NCBI GenBank assembly: GCA_030066685.1
Contig: JASJBF010000001.1
Coordinates: 62,001 to 126,000 of the forward strand
Direction of reading: 5' to 3'
From: Kiloniellales bacterium
GTDB lineage: Bacteria; Pseudomonadota; Alphaproteobacteria; Kiloniellales; JAKSBE01
Length of the DNA: 64,000 nucleotides
Shown here: one piece after another, positions 44,473 to 47,795 of the stretch
Layout of the letters: the number at the start of each line of letters is the position of its first letter
How positions within the stretch are numbered: the stretch's first letter is position 1
Translations under genes and position numbers: made by a program
The notes under the pieces: model-generated
What the model was told of the DNA's origin: nothing
What the model saw: only the letters and a program-made list of their open reading frames with translations
Database searches by the model: none

Positions 44473-45267
44473 TCAGCGACGCCAGCTCGGATCGACGCGG
44501 TCGAGCATGCGCAGGTAGGCCGGCCATTCCGGCAGGCGGACTTCGGCGCCGGCCTGGGCTGCGCCGTCCTCGAACTGGCTGCGGGTGCGCGCCATCACCG
44601 CGCGGCTCGGCAGCTTGAGGGTGCCGCCCGAGGCCATGACCTTGAGCTGGATCGCGGCGTTGTCCTCGAAGTGGTAGAGACGGCTGAAGGCCCAGGCGAC
44701 CGAGGGCCCGGTGGTGATCAGGCCGTGGTTGTAGAGCAGCAGGGTGTGATTGTCCGGCCCGAAGTCGGCGACCAGGCGCGCGCGCTCGTCGAGGTCGAGA
44801 GCGATCCCTTCGTACTCGTGGGTGCCGATACGCTCGTGGAACATGAACCCGGTCTGGGTCATGGGGACGAAGCCTTCCTCCAGGCAGGAGACCGCGACCG
44901 CGTTCTGGGAGTGGGTGTGCAGCACGCAGGAAATGTCCGGCCGCGCCCCGTGGATCGCCGAGTGGATGACGTAGCCGGCCCGGTTCACCGGGTAGGGGCT
45001 GTCGTCCAGCTTGTTGCCCTCGAGGTCGATCTTGACCAGGTTGGAGGCGGTGATCTCGTCGTAGGTCAGGCCGAAGGGGTTGATCAGGATCGCTTCCTCG
45101 CTGCCCGGGACCCGCGCGGTAATGTGGTTGTAGACCTGCGAAGTCCAGCCATGAAGATGCACCAGCCGGTAGCAGGCCGCCAGGTCCAGCCGGACCTGCC
45201 ACTCCTGGGCGCTGAAGCCGCGAGGCGCGTCAATTGAGTGAGGGTTCTCTTTTGCTGCCATACCCAT
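44473..45267 (-). CDS. Class II aldolase/adducin family protein
   Basis: 264 residues of the class II aldolase/adducin fold, with YNHITARVPGSEEAILINPFGL, the metal-site HTHSQNAVAVSC and a later YNHGLITTG. The long insert and length resemble the subgroup often annotated only as class II aldolase, and differ from the OtnC-like protein at 12187. Activity and substrate unknown. ATG 45267 has GAGGGAAA upstream; the frame extends to 45360 without support. It converges on the Yip1-like gene. Confidence 0.85.
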   Translation of the reverse strand: MGMAAKENPHSIDAPRGFSAQEWQVRLDLAACYRLVHLHGWTSQVYNHITARVPGSEEAILINPFGLTYDEITASNLVKIDLEGNKLDDSPYPVNRAGYVIHSAIHGARPDISCVLHTHSQNAVAVSCLEEGFVPMTQTGFMFHERIGTHEYEGIALDLDERARLVADFGPDNHTLLLYNHGLITTGPSVAWAFSRLYHFEDNAAIQLKVMASGGTLKLPSRAVMARTRSQFEDGAAQAGAEVRLPEWPAYLRMLDRVDPSWRR

Positions 45268-45457
45268 GTCAATTTCCCTCGGCTGCGAACGCCAAACTAA
45301 ACATAGCATTGGTTTGCGGTAGAGCAGAACCGCCCATGTTGCTAGGGCAGTCTCATTCACTTCCGCAAAAGGGGTGGCTTGCGTAGCGCCGCCCCCCTCC
45401 GTGTCTGCCTGTGTTTGCGAAATTCCGCATTTCTCGCGGTATGGGCAAACAATCTCA

Positions 45458-45486
45458 TTGACAGAAGGTTAGGCGGGCATTAATCA
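45458..45486 (+). promoter_or_regulatory. Putative sigma-70-type promoter of the low-GC patch
   Basis: A perfect TTGACA at 45458-45463, a 17-base spacer and TAATCA at 45481-45486 lie 34 bases upstream of ATG 45521. The -10 is imperfect. Prediction from sequence only. Confidence 0.4.
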
Positions 45487-45520
45487 GAATGTGGTGGCAG
45501 CAGCGAATGGAATCTGGGCA

Positions 45521-46330
45521 ATGAATGTTGAGTCTTTGTCGAGCGCAGAAAATGCCGAAGCTCCGGATGCGGGTCCGGAACGCCAGCGATCAACGATCGG
45601 ATTTCCTTACATTGGTCTCAGCGAAGCAATTGGGGTCGCTCAGGCTTTGCATGCACATGTCGGGTCCGGCGCGTGTGATGACAATCAGCTTGCGTCATGG
45701 CTGAACCTTAGTGCGAAGAGTAGTGGTTTTCGCGTTCGAATTTCGGCGGCACGCATGTTTGGTGTCATAGATTCGGTGTCGCCTGGAAAGTACCAGCTAT
45801 CATCTCTGGGTATGGCCATCGTGGATCGCGACCGTGCCGAGCGTGCCAAAGTGGAAGCCTTCCTAAGGGTTCCATTATTTGATGCAGTTTATGAGAAGTG
45901 GGGTGGGAGGCAGCTCCCACCACGGACTGGTTTTGAGCGCGAGCTAGTTGGCCTGGGGGTCGCAGAGAAGCAGAGCGACCGAGCACGACAGGTCTTAGAA
46001 CGATCAGCACAGTCTGCAGGTTTCTTTCACGCAGGTAGAGACCGGCTCGTCAAACCAGGAATTAAGCCTGAAGAGGAGCGTCATTCGGATCAAGGTGGTG
46101 GTACCGCGAAAGTAGACGACAACCTACCGGAGCACCTTGATCCAGTGATTAAGGGACTTATCGACAAACTACCAAGGCCTGGGTCTATTTGGCCTGAGAA
46201 GGAAAGGGCTCTTTGGTTACAAATTCTCGAGAATAGCTTCAAGCTTGTCTACGATGAGGAGGCCGAACCGAAAGGCCATTCTATTAGGGAAGCTGGGACC
46301 GCCAATTCAGATGACGAGGGCTGGTCGTGA
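45521..46330 (+). CDS. Hypothetical protein of a low-GC accessory patch
   Basis: 269 residues, not firmly recognised. The N-terminal half (FPYIGLSEAIGVAQAL ... LASWLNLSAKSSGFRVRISAARMFGVID ... YQLSSLG) reads like a winged-helix-type domain of the DUF5343-like kind. The C-terminal part is acidic and ends with a helix (EKERALWLQILENSFKLVYDEE). Codon use and base composition are clearly less GC-rich than the neighbours, suggesting transfer. ATG 45521 is used; GTG 45491 is possible. The stop overlaps the GTG of the next gene (GTGA), so the two should be made together. Confidence 0.65.
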   Translation: MNVESLSSAENAEAPDAGPERQRSTIGFPYIGLSEAIGVAQALHAHVGSGACDDNQLASWLNLSAKSSGFRVRISAARMFGVIDSVSPGKYQLSSLGMAIVDRDRAERAKVEAFLRVPLFDAVYEKWGGRQLPPRTGFERELVGLGVAEKQSDRARQVLERSAQSAGFFHAGRDRLVKPGIKPEEERHSDQGGGTAKVDDNLPEHLDPVIKGLIDKLPRPGSIWPEKERALWLQILENSFKLVYDEEAEPKGHSIREAGTANSDDEGWS

Positions 46331-46530
46331 CAGAGGAAGAGTACTATTCGGTAGTGGCAAAGCTAGGTCTCCGTCCGACCCAAGTGCCGACAGTATATGT
46401 GACTGGCCAGGGAGATCTCTATAACGTACCTATTGCAGCTCGATACACTGCCGAACAGCGCGCCGAAATCATCGAGCGACTTAAGATGAGGATGGGAATA
46501 ACTTGGGGGGGCGCCTGGGATGCGGACTAG
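46327..46530 (+). CDS. Small hypothetical protein coupled to the preceding gene
   Basis: 67 residues, not recognised: TEEEYYSVVAKLGLRPTQVPTVYVTG followed by a helix (TAEQRAEIIERLKMRMGI). The GTG start overlaps the preceding stop by 4 bases. No signal or membrane segment. Base composition matches the preceding gene. The tight coupling suggests the two proteins act together. Confidence 0.6.
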   Translation: MTEEEYYSVVAKLGLRPTQVPTVYVTGQGDLYNVPIAARYTAEQRAEIIERLKMRMGITWGGAWDAD

Positions 46531-46551
46531 GCGCCCTATCGCCAAGTCAGC

Positions 46552-46830
46552 CTAGTTAGTGTTTAGAGCAGCCCGTGCAATCTCTGCAGGAAATGCAACC
46601 CAAGGCCGTAGGCCATCTTCTTCGGATTCGACCTTCGATACGACAACGCCAATACCAGAAGCACGATACAGATCGGCAATTGCCAAAGGAATGGCATCTT
46701 CGAGCGCGTCCATCGTAGGCTCAGCGACCAACAGGCCTGGCAAATCGGGGCTTGTTGCGTAGAAAAGGCCCGTTTCGCCTTCCTCTGTTCTCACTCGAAC
46801 GATCTTTGCCTTGCTCGTGGGTCGATGCAT
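46552..46830 (-). CDS. HicB/DUF1902-like small protein
   Basis: 92 residues. The core GLFYATSPDLPGLLVAEPTMDALEDAIPLAIADLY is the HicB-like partial RNase H fold seen in HicB antitoxins and DUF1902 proteins. No adjacent HicA-type toxin is visible and no DNA-binding C-terminal domain follows, so it may be a solitary antitoxin-like protein or a remnant. It lies in the low-GC patch, tail to tail with the coupled pair. Confidence 0.65.
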   Translation of the reverse strand: MHRPTSKAKIVRVRTEEGETGLFYATSPDLPGLLVAEPTMDALEDAIPLAIADLYRASGIGVVVSKVESEEDGLRPWVAFPAEIARAALNTN

Positions 46831-47015
46831 GGTTCCCTTCCTATGACACCACTCAGCATACAGTGTGTGAGTGAGTGACTAAACTATCCATTAATCTGAC
46901 GTGTGATGCATGCCAAATCAAGACACTGGGTTGCAATGCAGCATTGTGACTAGGGTCTATTGACTGCGGCGCTCTGAATTTCAATTCCGCCATACCATGT
47001 ATAGGCGCGTCAGAT

Positions 47016-47519
47016 TCAGCTGCTCCGCTGCGGAAAGATTTCCGGTGGGATGCGGGTCTCGGCCTTGATCCGGCGCAGGACGAAGTGCGAGCGCACGTGG
47101 TCGACGTAGGGCAGGTCCAACAGGAAATCCTGCAGGAAGCGGTCGTAGGCCCGGACGCTGGGCGCTAGGACCCGCAGCATGTAGTCCTCGTCCCCGGTGG
47201 TGGCATAGCAGTCCAGGACCTCGGGGCGGCTCATGACGGCGGCCACGAAGTCCTCGGTGTTGGCCTTGAGGTGGCGGCCCAGGCGCACGTTGGCGAAGAC
47301 GCAGTCGGTCAGGCCGACCCGCTCCGGGTCGACCTTGGCGACATAGCCCTGGATCACGCCGCTCTCCTCCAGCGCCCGGACCCGGCGCCAGCAGGCCGAG
47401 GGCGAGAGGTTGACCCGCTCGGCGAGCTCCTGGTTGGACAGCCGGCAGTCCTTCTGGAGCTCGTCCAGGATGCGCAACTCCTGGGGACCGATCTCGGGAG
47501 AATCGACACGATTCTTCAT
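47016..47519 (-). CDS. Lrp/AsnC family transcriptional regulator
   Basis: 167 residues: N-terminal helix-turn-helix (LRILDELQKDCRLSNQELAERVNLSPSACWRRVRALEESGVI) and C-terminal RAM ligand-binding domain (VLDCYATTGDEDYMLRVLA). Such regulators respond to amino acids and often control a divergent amino-acid catabolic gene. The divergent neighbour here is the indolepyruvate oxidoreductase gene, followed by an amino-acid dehydrogenase. A palindrome TTTCTAG/CTAGAAA sits in the shared region at 47551. Confidence 0.92.
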   Translation of the reverse strand: MKNRVDSPEIGPQELRILDELQKDCRLSNQELAERVNLSPSACWRRVRALEESGVIQGYVAKVDPERVGLTDCVFANVRLGRHLKANTEDFVAAVMSRPEVLDCYATTGDEDYMLRVLAPSVRAYDRFLQDFLLDLPYVDHVRSHFVLRRIKAETRIPPEIFPQRSS

Positions 47520-47575: not shown

Positions 47576-47661
47576 GGAATATCTGACCAAAGCGCTTGGG
47601 TTAGAATTCGAGCTTGTGCAGTCCTCGTGCGGCAAGCGTGATGCTTAACGCCTCTTCAAGC

Positions 47662-47738
47662 TGTCATCGCCGGACTTGATCCGGCGATCCATGGTCGGGT
47701 GGCGCGGTGGATGCCCGGATCAAGTCCGGGCATGACAG
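47662..47738. repeat. Dispersed double-hairpin intergenic repeat, copy 2
   Basis: TCGCCGGA/TCCGGCGA around CTTGA, then TGCCCGGA/TCCGGGCA around TCAAG, bounded by TGTCAT and ATGACA. Nearly identical in its first half to the copy at 31707-31793. It lies upstream of the indolepyruvate oxidoreductase gene. Confidence 0.7.
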
Positions 47739-47795
47739 CGGGGCAGAAGCGGAAATGCGCCGACGCATCTGGACGAAAGCCAACGGAGAGTCCCG

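Follow-up and report, generated by a model that had tools for sequence, protein, structure and literature searches.

What kind of genetic unit is formed by three genes in a short low-GC patch between a class II aldolase gene (44473-45270, minus strand) and an Lrp/AsnC regulator gene (47016-47519, minus strand)? The patch lies in a window of 64,000 nucleotides (C1:62001-126000, from a 5.96-Mb genome of 73 contigs), whose numbering is used throughout. Gene A (45521-46330, plus strand, ATG start) encodes a 269-aa protein with a predicted winged helix and a further helical domain. Gene B (46327-46530, plus strand) encodes 67 aa and is a putative partner of the HicB-like protein. The HicB-like (DUF1902-like) gene (46552-46830, minus strand; 92 aa) is convergent with B, 21 bp apart. 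The first-pass annotation of this DNA correctly described A and B, with these lengths, as coupled through a GTG start of B that overlaps the stop of A. It regarded them as acquired orphan genes, possibly a toxin-antitoxin or defence module, and the HicB-like gene as one without a HicA partner.

Composition and site of the low-GC patch

The G+C content at 45401-47005 is 0.526, compared to a mean of 0.684 in 590 stretches of the same length elsewhere in the window (sd 0.0215, lowest 0.632; z -7.3). GC3 is 0.489 in A, 0.544 in B and 0.484 in the HicB-like gene, compared to 0.887 (sd 0.059, lowest 0.674) in 49 other window ORFs picked by script. With the G+C of the patch and the GC3 of its three genes both deviating, the genes look like a single acquired block. 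The change in composition reported at first pass is thus borne out: the patch is unlike its flanks in both G+C and codon profile (GC3 of about 0.5 versus 0.89).

The site was compared with that of two genomes of the same genus, G001 and G002. Their flanks are 78-89% identical to those of the window, and in place of the segment between the conserved flanks (45226-47018) there are ~130 bp in G001 and ~1080 bp of other DNA in G002. The G002 segment (G002:C245:3621-4700, in L077) contains a different ORF of 203 aa. By eye, a stretch near 45376 resembles intergenic DNA of G001. As the aligner gave no clean junction, the insertion point is placed only between 45226 and 47018. A palindromic repeat of ~80 bp is found at 47660-47741 of the window; it is present many times over in G001, G002 and G006, and a few other genomes of the order contain copies as well.

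A is found in 4 of 142 other relatives (one match being weak and partial), B in none and the HicB-like gene in one; none of the three is found in either same-genus genome, and they are not core genes of the relatives. The foreign composition, together with a site that is empty or otherwise filled in G001 and G002, supports the earlier proposal that the patch is acquired DNA.

Signs of a mobile element were looked for as well. No significant transposase is found at 42-50 kb of the window (best E-value: 0.065), an inverted repeat, a target duplication and a tRNA were looked for without success, and the RNA model of the A family (see below) has no match above chance in the window. Transposases of the IS1 and IS1595 types were not found in the genome itself (the control of one search gave 1/14, and the other search had no positive control). 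A reading of the patch as an intact or decayed insertion sequence is not supported, the copy of A in the window being without transposase, repeats, RNA and tRNA.

The family of gene A and its mobile-element neighbours

The designation of A as an orphan is not upheld. As a single query A has no match in genome contigs, nor does it have one in plasmids and phages; a four-row alignment fetched 46 related loci, 41 from named genomes and five from viral contigs. Their titles include Pseudomonadota, Actinomycetota, Acidobacteriota and Chloroflexota. Some of these titles may be wrong, since many of the loci come from metagenome bins and two such bins yielded apparent copies of one locus, L034 and L035; the latter was omitted, leaving 45 loci for the counts below. 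A 44-row A profile matches 4 of 60 other genomes of the order (two of them partially) and 8 of 384 other genomes of the class, where at most six candidates were scored per genome; three of the eight matches are full length, one of these with an internal TAG.

A matches no family of Pfam, PHROGs, PADLOC or NCBIfam at E-values up to 1. Among 44 family members, seven Pfam families are matched at E-values up to 0.1; MarR is not one of them, and the commonest weak match occurs in five members. The similarity of A to its family extends over the protein as far as the C-terminal LP..W part, and A keeps the conserved residues. The N-terminus of the family is predicted to be a winged helix. In the AlphaFold2 model of A (pLDDT 85), the winged helix comprises residues 31-106, with further helices to about 180. 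Residues 31-106 align with MarR-type winged helices (Z 6.0-6.8, mostly over 65-71 residues) and residues 27-180 with the recognition part of FokI (Z 8.0), although A has no sequence match to either and a Z of 8 or less may reflect a common arrangement. Foldseek found no match to the A model in the PDB at an E-value of 0.001 or better; a methyltransferase fold, present in its top rows with TM about 0.2, was taken as chance. DUF5343, considered for its similarity, was also rejected, being absent among the Pfam matches; a literature search returned no paper holding that word.

Many relatives of A adjoin a transposase gene. A divergent IS1-type transposase is located 80-527 bp upstream of A in 22 of the 45 loci (by search with reference proteins), an IS1595-type transposase within 0.64 kb of A in five, and a transposase fragment near A in L038. 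Neither type is in range in 17 loci, of which L060, L065 and L071 end too close to a contig edge to judge; L045 has an IS1595-type transposase at 1.5 kb. Five example transposases are named DDE_Tnp_IS1 or DDE_Tnp_IS1595 by Pfam. A 19-base repeat is found on both sides of A in 9 of the 45 loci (raw count, up to 5 mismatches), and by eye the outer flanks also repeat in eight of these (L041, L044, L047, L058, L063, L067, L068 and L074). The end repeats of L047 and L063 were recovered without the consensus too. L038 has repeats at both ends beside its transposase fragment, with flanks that do not match. In L059 both ends carry a divergent repeat, and in L054 only one end carries a repeat; no inverted repeats were found in the Bradyrhizobium-type loci.

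The distances among A proteins correlate with those among their transposases (Mantel r 0.414, reached in 0 of 5000 permutations; 19 of the 22 loci). Transposase-bearing and transposase-less loci are intermingled on the tree, with at least 8 changes over the 39 rows (of 44) that remain once five rows, edge cases or fragments, are omitted. The IS1 label requires 13 changes, a number as low in 96 of 500 shuffles and so hardly beyond chance clustering. The A protein of the window belongs to a supported set of 22 rows, 11 of which are IS1-linked. Genes for PemK/MazF toxin, Fic and Abi_2/HEPN proteins (L038:6415-6840; L040:8884-9534; L056:5004-5690) are found near transposase-less or rearranged A loci.

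The loci of A relatives also include a conserved RNA of ~113 nt, on the minus strand upstream of A (e.g. L070:7735-7850). The rows of its model are 15 loci (L031-L034, L038, L039, L041, L042, L044, L046, L050, L052, L059, L070 and L073), and changes on both sides support 6 of the 10 predicted pairs of the hairpin. Outside these rows the model matches L075, L083 and L090 and, weakly, the transposase-less L040 (E-value: 0.0027), as well as 5 of 367 class genomes (L098, L099, L100, L101 and L102). In L100 and L101 the RNA lies beside an IS1-type transposase, a small KGGKAR...RW protein, a tRNA and a winged-helix-type ORF (by profile match in L100 and by eye in L101), and in L098 the RNA locus has an IS1595-type transposase. 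No such neighbour accompanies the matches in L099 and L102, which were set aside. Distant winged-helix-type proteins in L083, L090 and L100 (profile E-values: 5e-8 to 2e-4) adjoin the same transposase type and the RNA.

Rfam, searched at gathering scores with eight source loci, matched only tRNA, in four of them. ARAGORN predicts tRNA genes between the transposase and A in 10 of the 22 IS1-linked loci (L031, L039, L041, L042, L044, L046, L047, L070, L073 and L075). L047 and L101 contain one tRNA each whose anticodon, TTA, would decode the stop codon UAA, and some tRNA copies apparently have an odd anticodon arm (by eye). A small protein with an end of the KGGKARA..LTPEQRAEIAKKAA..RW type is encoded convergently to A in L041 (L041:8719-8964), L044 (L044:8735-8968), L047, L054, L068 and L100 (L100:868-1101); the L044 copy has no Pfam match. 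Among titles and abstract openings, with subscription papers outside the scope of the search, no mention was found of the A family, of its RNA or of the association with tRNA genes.

The comparison with passenger genes of IS1/IS1595-type elements is two-sided: elements that have such transposases and inverted repeats contain relatives of A, whereas in the window neither a transposase nor an inverted repeat or target duplication was found. Elements of the IS1595 type are reportedly known, from a 2009 paper on the family, to carry passenger genes. A might be the stranded passenger of a vanished element of this kind, with the small genes unrelated to it and no working system present. The bare window (no tRNA, inverted repeat, target duplication, significant transposase at 42-50 kb or above-chance RNA match) is as expected of such a relic, and neither transposase type was found in the genome (one search being without positive control). 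The scatter of transposase-less loci over the tree and the weak RNA match kept by the transposase-less L040 agree with it as well. However, all three ORFs are open, B overlaps the stop of A, and A retains both the conserved residues and the promoter words of its family; this explanation is considered rather unlikely.

Gene B and the HicB-like gene

The HicB-like protein matches DUF1902 below threshold (20.1 bits, cut-off 22) and has no DNA-binding domain in Pfam. Neither A nor B nor any of six other ORFs examined in the patch has a Pfam match to HicA (PF07927), and B matches no Pfam family even at an E-value of 10. The model of B is poor (pLDDT 62) and was rejected as evidence. The earlier statement that the HicB-like gene lacks a HicA partner is thus accurate for recognizable HicA matches in the patch. 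It is probably misleading otherwise, because the nearest relative of the HicB-like protein, which is the one found among the 142 relatives and lies in G103, a genome of another family, adjoins a homologue of B: a 70-aa ORF follows in tandem, 16 bp on (to the ATG). B is similar to this ORF with an E-value of 8e-6 (26.2 bits, 30% identity); among 2000 shuffles 330 aligned, the best with 20.0 bits. The G103 homologue has only PASTA in Pfam (E-value: 0.19), and by eye there is no A among the ORFs listed around it.

A two-row profile of the HicB-like protein has matches in 4 of 346 other class genomes (G103, L104, L105 and L106). The relatives in L104 and L106 adjoin a PF07927 HicA gene, which comes first in L106, where the HicB-like match spans a stop; the relative in L105 adjoins a 74-aa ORF without identification. 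PMC10865869 describes hicA as juxtaposed to many DUF1902 genes. B thus stands in the place that HicA takes beside other relatives. Together with the HicB-like gene it has the appearance of a divergent HicAB-type pair, in a tail-to-tail arrangement in the window and with B coupled to A, and the HicB-like gene is probably not partnerless.

The pair resembles type II HicAB modules (PF07927 with HicB_lk/DUF1902) in that a DUF1902-like protein adjoins a 67-aa protein and in that a PF07927 HicA gene lies beside two of the three further relatives. It differs in that B has no PF07927 match and a separate winged-helix gene is coupled to B. Because B has no HicA match, the HicAB reading concerns a possible mode of action and not membership. 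Several observations stand against the pair: B has no Pfam match and a poor model, its link is to one genome, at 30% identity, the relative in L105 adjoins neither a HicA gene nor a recognized B, and B and the HicB-like gene are convergent and not in one operon (they are in tandem in G103).

The toxin-antitoxin character suggested by the first-pass annotation is retained through this synteny, with B paired to the HicB-like gene and not to A. On the original proposal A and B themselves form a toxin-antitoxin or defence pair, which would make the HicB-like gene a bystander. The GTGA overlap fits it, as do other small genes next to A: one overlaps the end of A in L040 (a similar one is found in L071), and another begins at the stop of A in L030 and has a relative 58 bp after A in L051 (E-value: 9e-17). 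The partners nevertheless vary among loci (B, the L040/L071 type and the L030/L051 type), and in the transposase-linked loci, inspected by eye, no coupled partner was seen to recur; several of these loci have a terminator-like repeat or a convergent small gene after A. The homologue of B, moreover, adjoins a HicB-like gene, with no A seen by eye among the ORFs around it. As to defence, PADLOC 2.0.0 gave no family at E-values up to 1 for A, B, the HicB-like protein and eight related or neighbouring proteins, so the phage-defence claim is not sustained. An A-B pair is accordingly judged quite unlikely.

Searches of mobile DNA were negative for both small genes. B has no match in plasmids, phages or viral contigs, also when aligned with its homologue, and the homologue has none in plasmids. 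The HicB-like gene is not found in plasmids, its G103 relative is not found in plasmids or phages, and their two-row alignment has no match in viral contigs. Two weak class-level matches to B (E-values: 0.0069 and 0.0088) lie inside long ORFs and were dropped.

The promoter of gene A and a model for the patch

A -35-like hexamer, TTGACA (45458-45463, plus strand), is located 63 bp before A. Because a sigma-70 consensus scan lists no site there, only the -35 hexamer of this promoter is good; of the promoter claimed for the pair at first pass, the hexamer stands and a full sigma-70 site does not. Farther upstream are the words TGTCTGC, TGTTTGC, TCCGCAT and GCAAACA (45402-45451, plus strand), common to the promoters of A relatives, and the operator-like word TTCCGCAAA (45361-45369, plus strand).

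Words were counted in the 160 bases before A at 44 loci including the window, with at most three counted per locus. TTATCCAA occurs 12 times (0.1 expected), CGCAAACA 11 times (0.3 expected) and TCCGCATT 7 times (0.4 expected), counts that are inflated by the relatedness of the loci; the highest count of any 8-mer in shuffled promoters is 7. The short word TTTGCG by itself shows no enrichment, occurring in 10 of 44 loci compared to a mean of 7.3 in shuffles. When left out of training, the window promoter contains 4 hits of the top twenty 7-mers. At least as many occur in 7 of 2000 shuffles and in 8 of 1596 other 160-nt stretches of the window, some of which overlap the promoter. Internal repeats number 379 in the 44 promoters pooled, compared to 221.6 in shuffles, whereas the window promoter is not richer than its shuffles (6 versus 5.2). 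A single TATCCATT word, frequent in A promoters, is found ~60 bp upstream of the HicB-like start (46885-46892, plus strand); as 21 of 100 window shuffles also contain one, its presence there is weak evidence. Because the window promoter still carries the promoter words of the family, A is most likely an autorepressor.

Words common to distant loci could also mean that A acts in trans, as an immunity repressor silencing incoming IS1/IS1595-type elements that have the same operators. In L058, L063, L068 and L074 the gap between A and the transposase is 80-136 bp, such that one operator region would serve both promoters. No such element was found in the genome itself, however, and this role appears very unlikely.

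The proposed model, offered tentatively and with somewhat less than even confidence, is as follows. The patch is an acquired, transposase-less cassette in which A is an autorepressor controlling B, and B and the HicB-like gene form a HicAB-type pair. A would bind the TGTTTGCG/TCCGCAT sites and repress its own promoter and hence B. B would be a small toxin in the position of HicA, and the HicB-like protein would neutralise it. A would thereby supply the transcriptional control that is given in classical hicAB operons by the C-terminal domain of HicB. Three-component toxin-antitoxin systems with a separate regulator exist. The patch resembles them in having a regulator gene and two small genes, and differs in that the antitoxin-like gene is convergent and the function putative.

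A broader proposal, which should be regarded as unlikely, is that IS1/IS1595-type mobile elements include an undescribed class in which a winged-helix repressor, the conserved ~113-nt RNA and tRNA genes accompany a transposase, with A as the protein component. The window would then contain a derivative reduced to the protein, which has been recruited as a separate transcriptional regulator for a divergent HicAB-like pair with an antitoxin that lacks any recognizable DNA-binding domain.

A family without a match in Pfam, NCBIfam, PHROGs or PADLOC is now given a home and tied to mobile elements, and its RNA- and tRNA-bearing members may be the weightier lead. For the patch itself, the model provides a candidate mode of regulation for HicAB-like pairs without a DNA-binding antitoxin, a question raised in PMC10865869.
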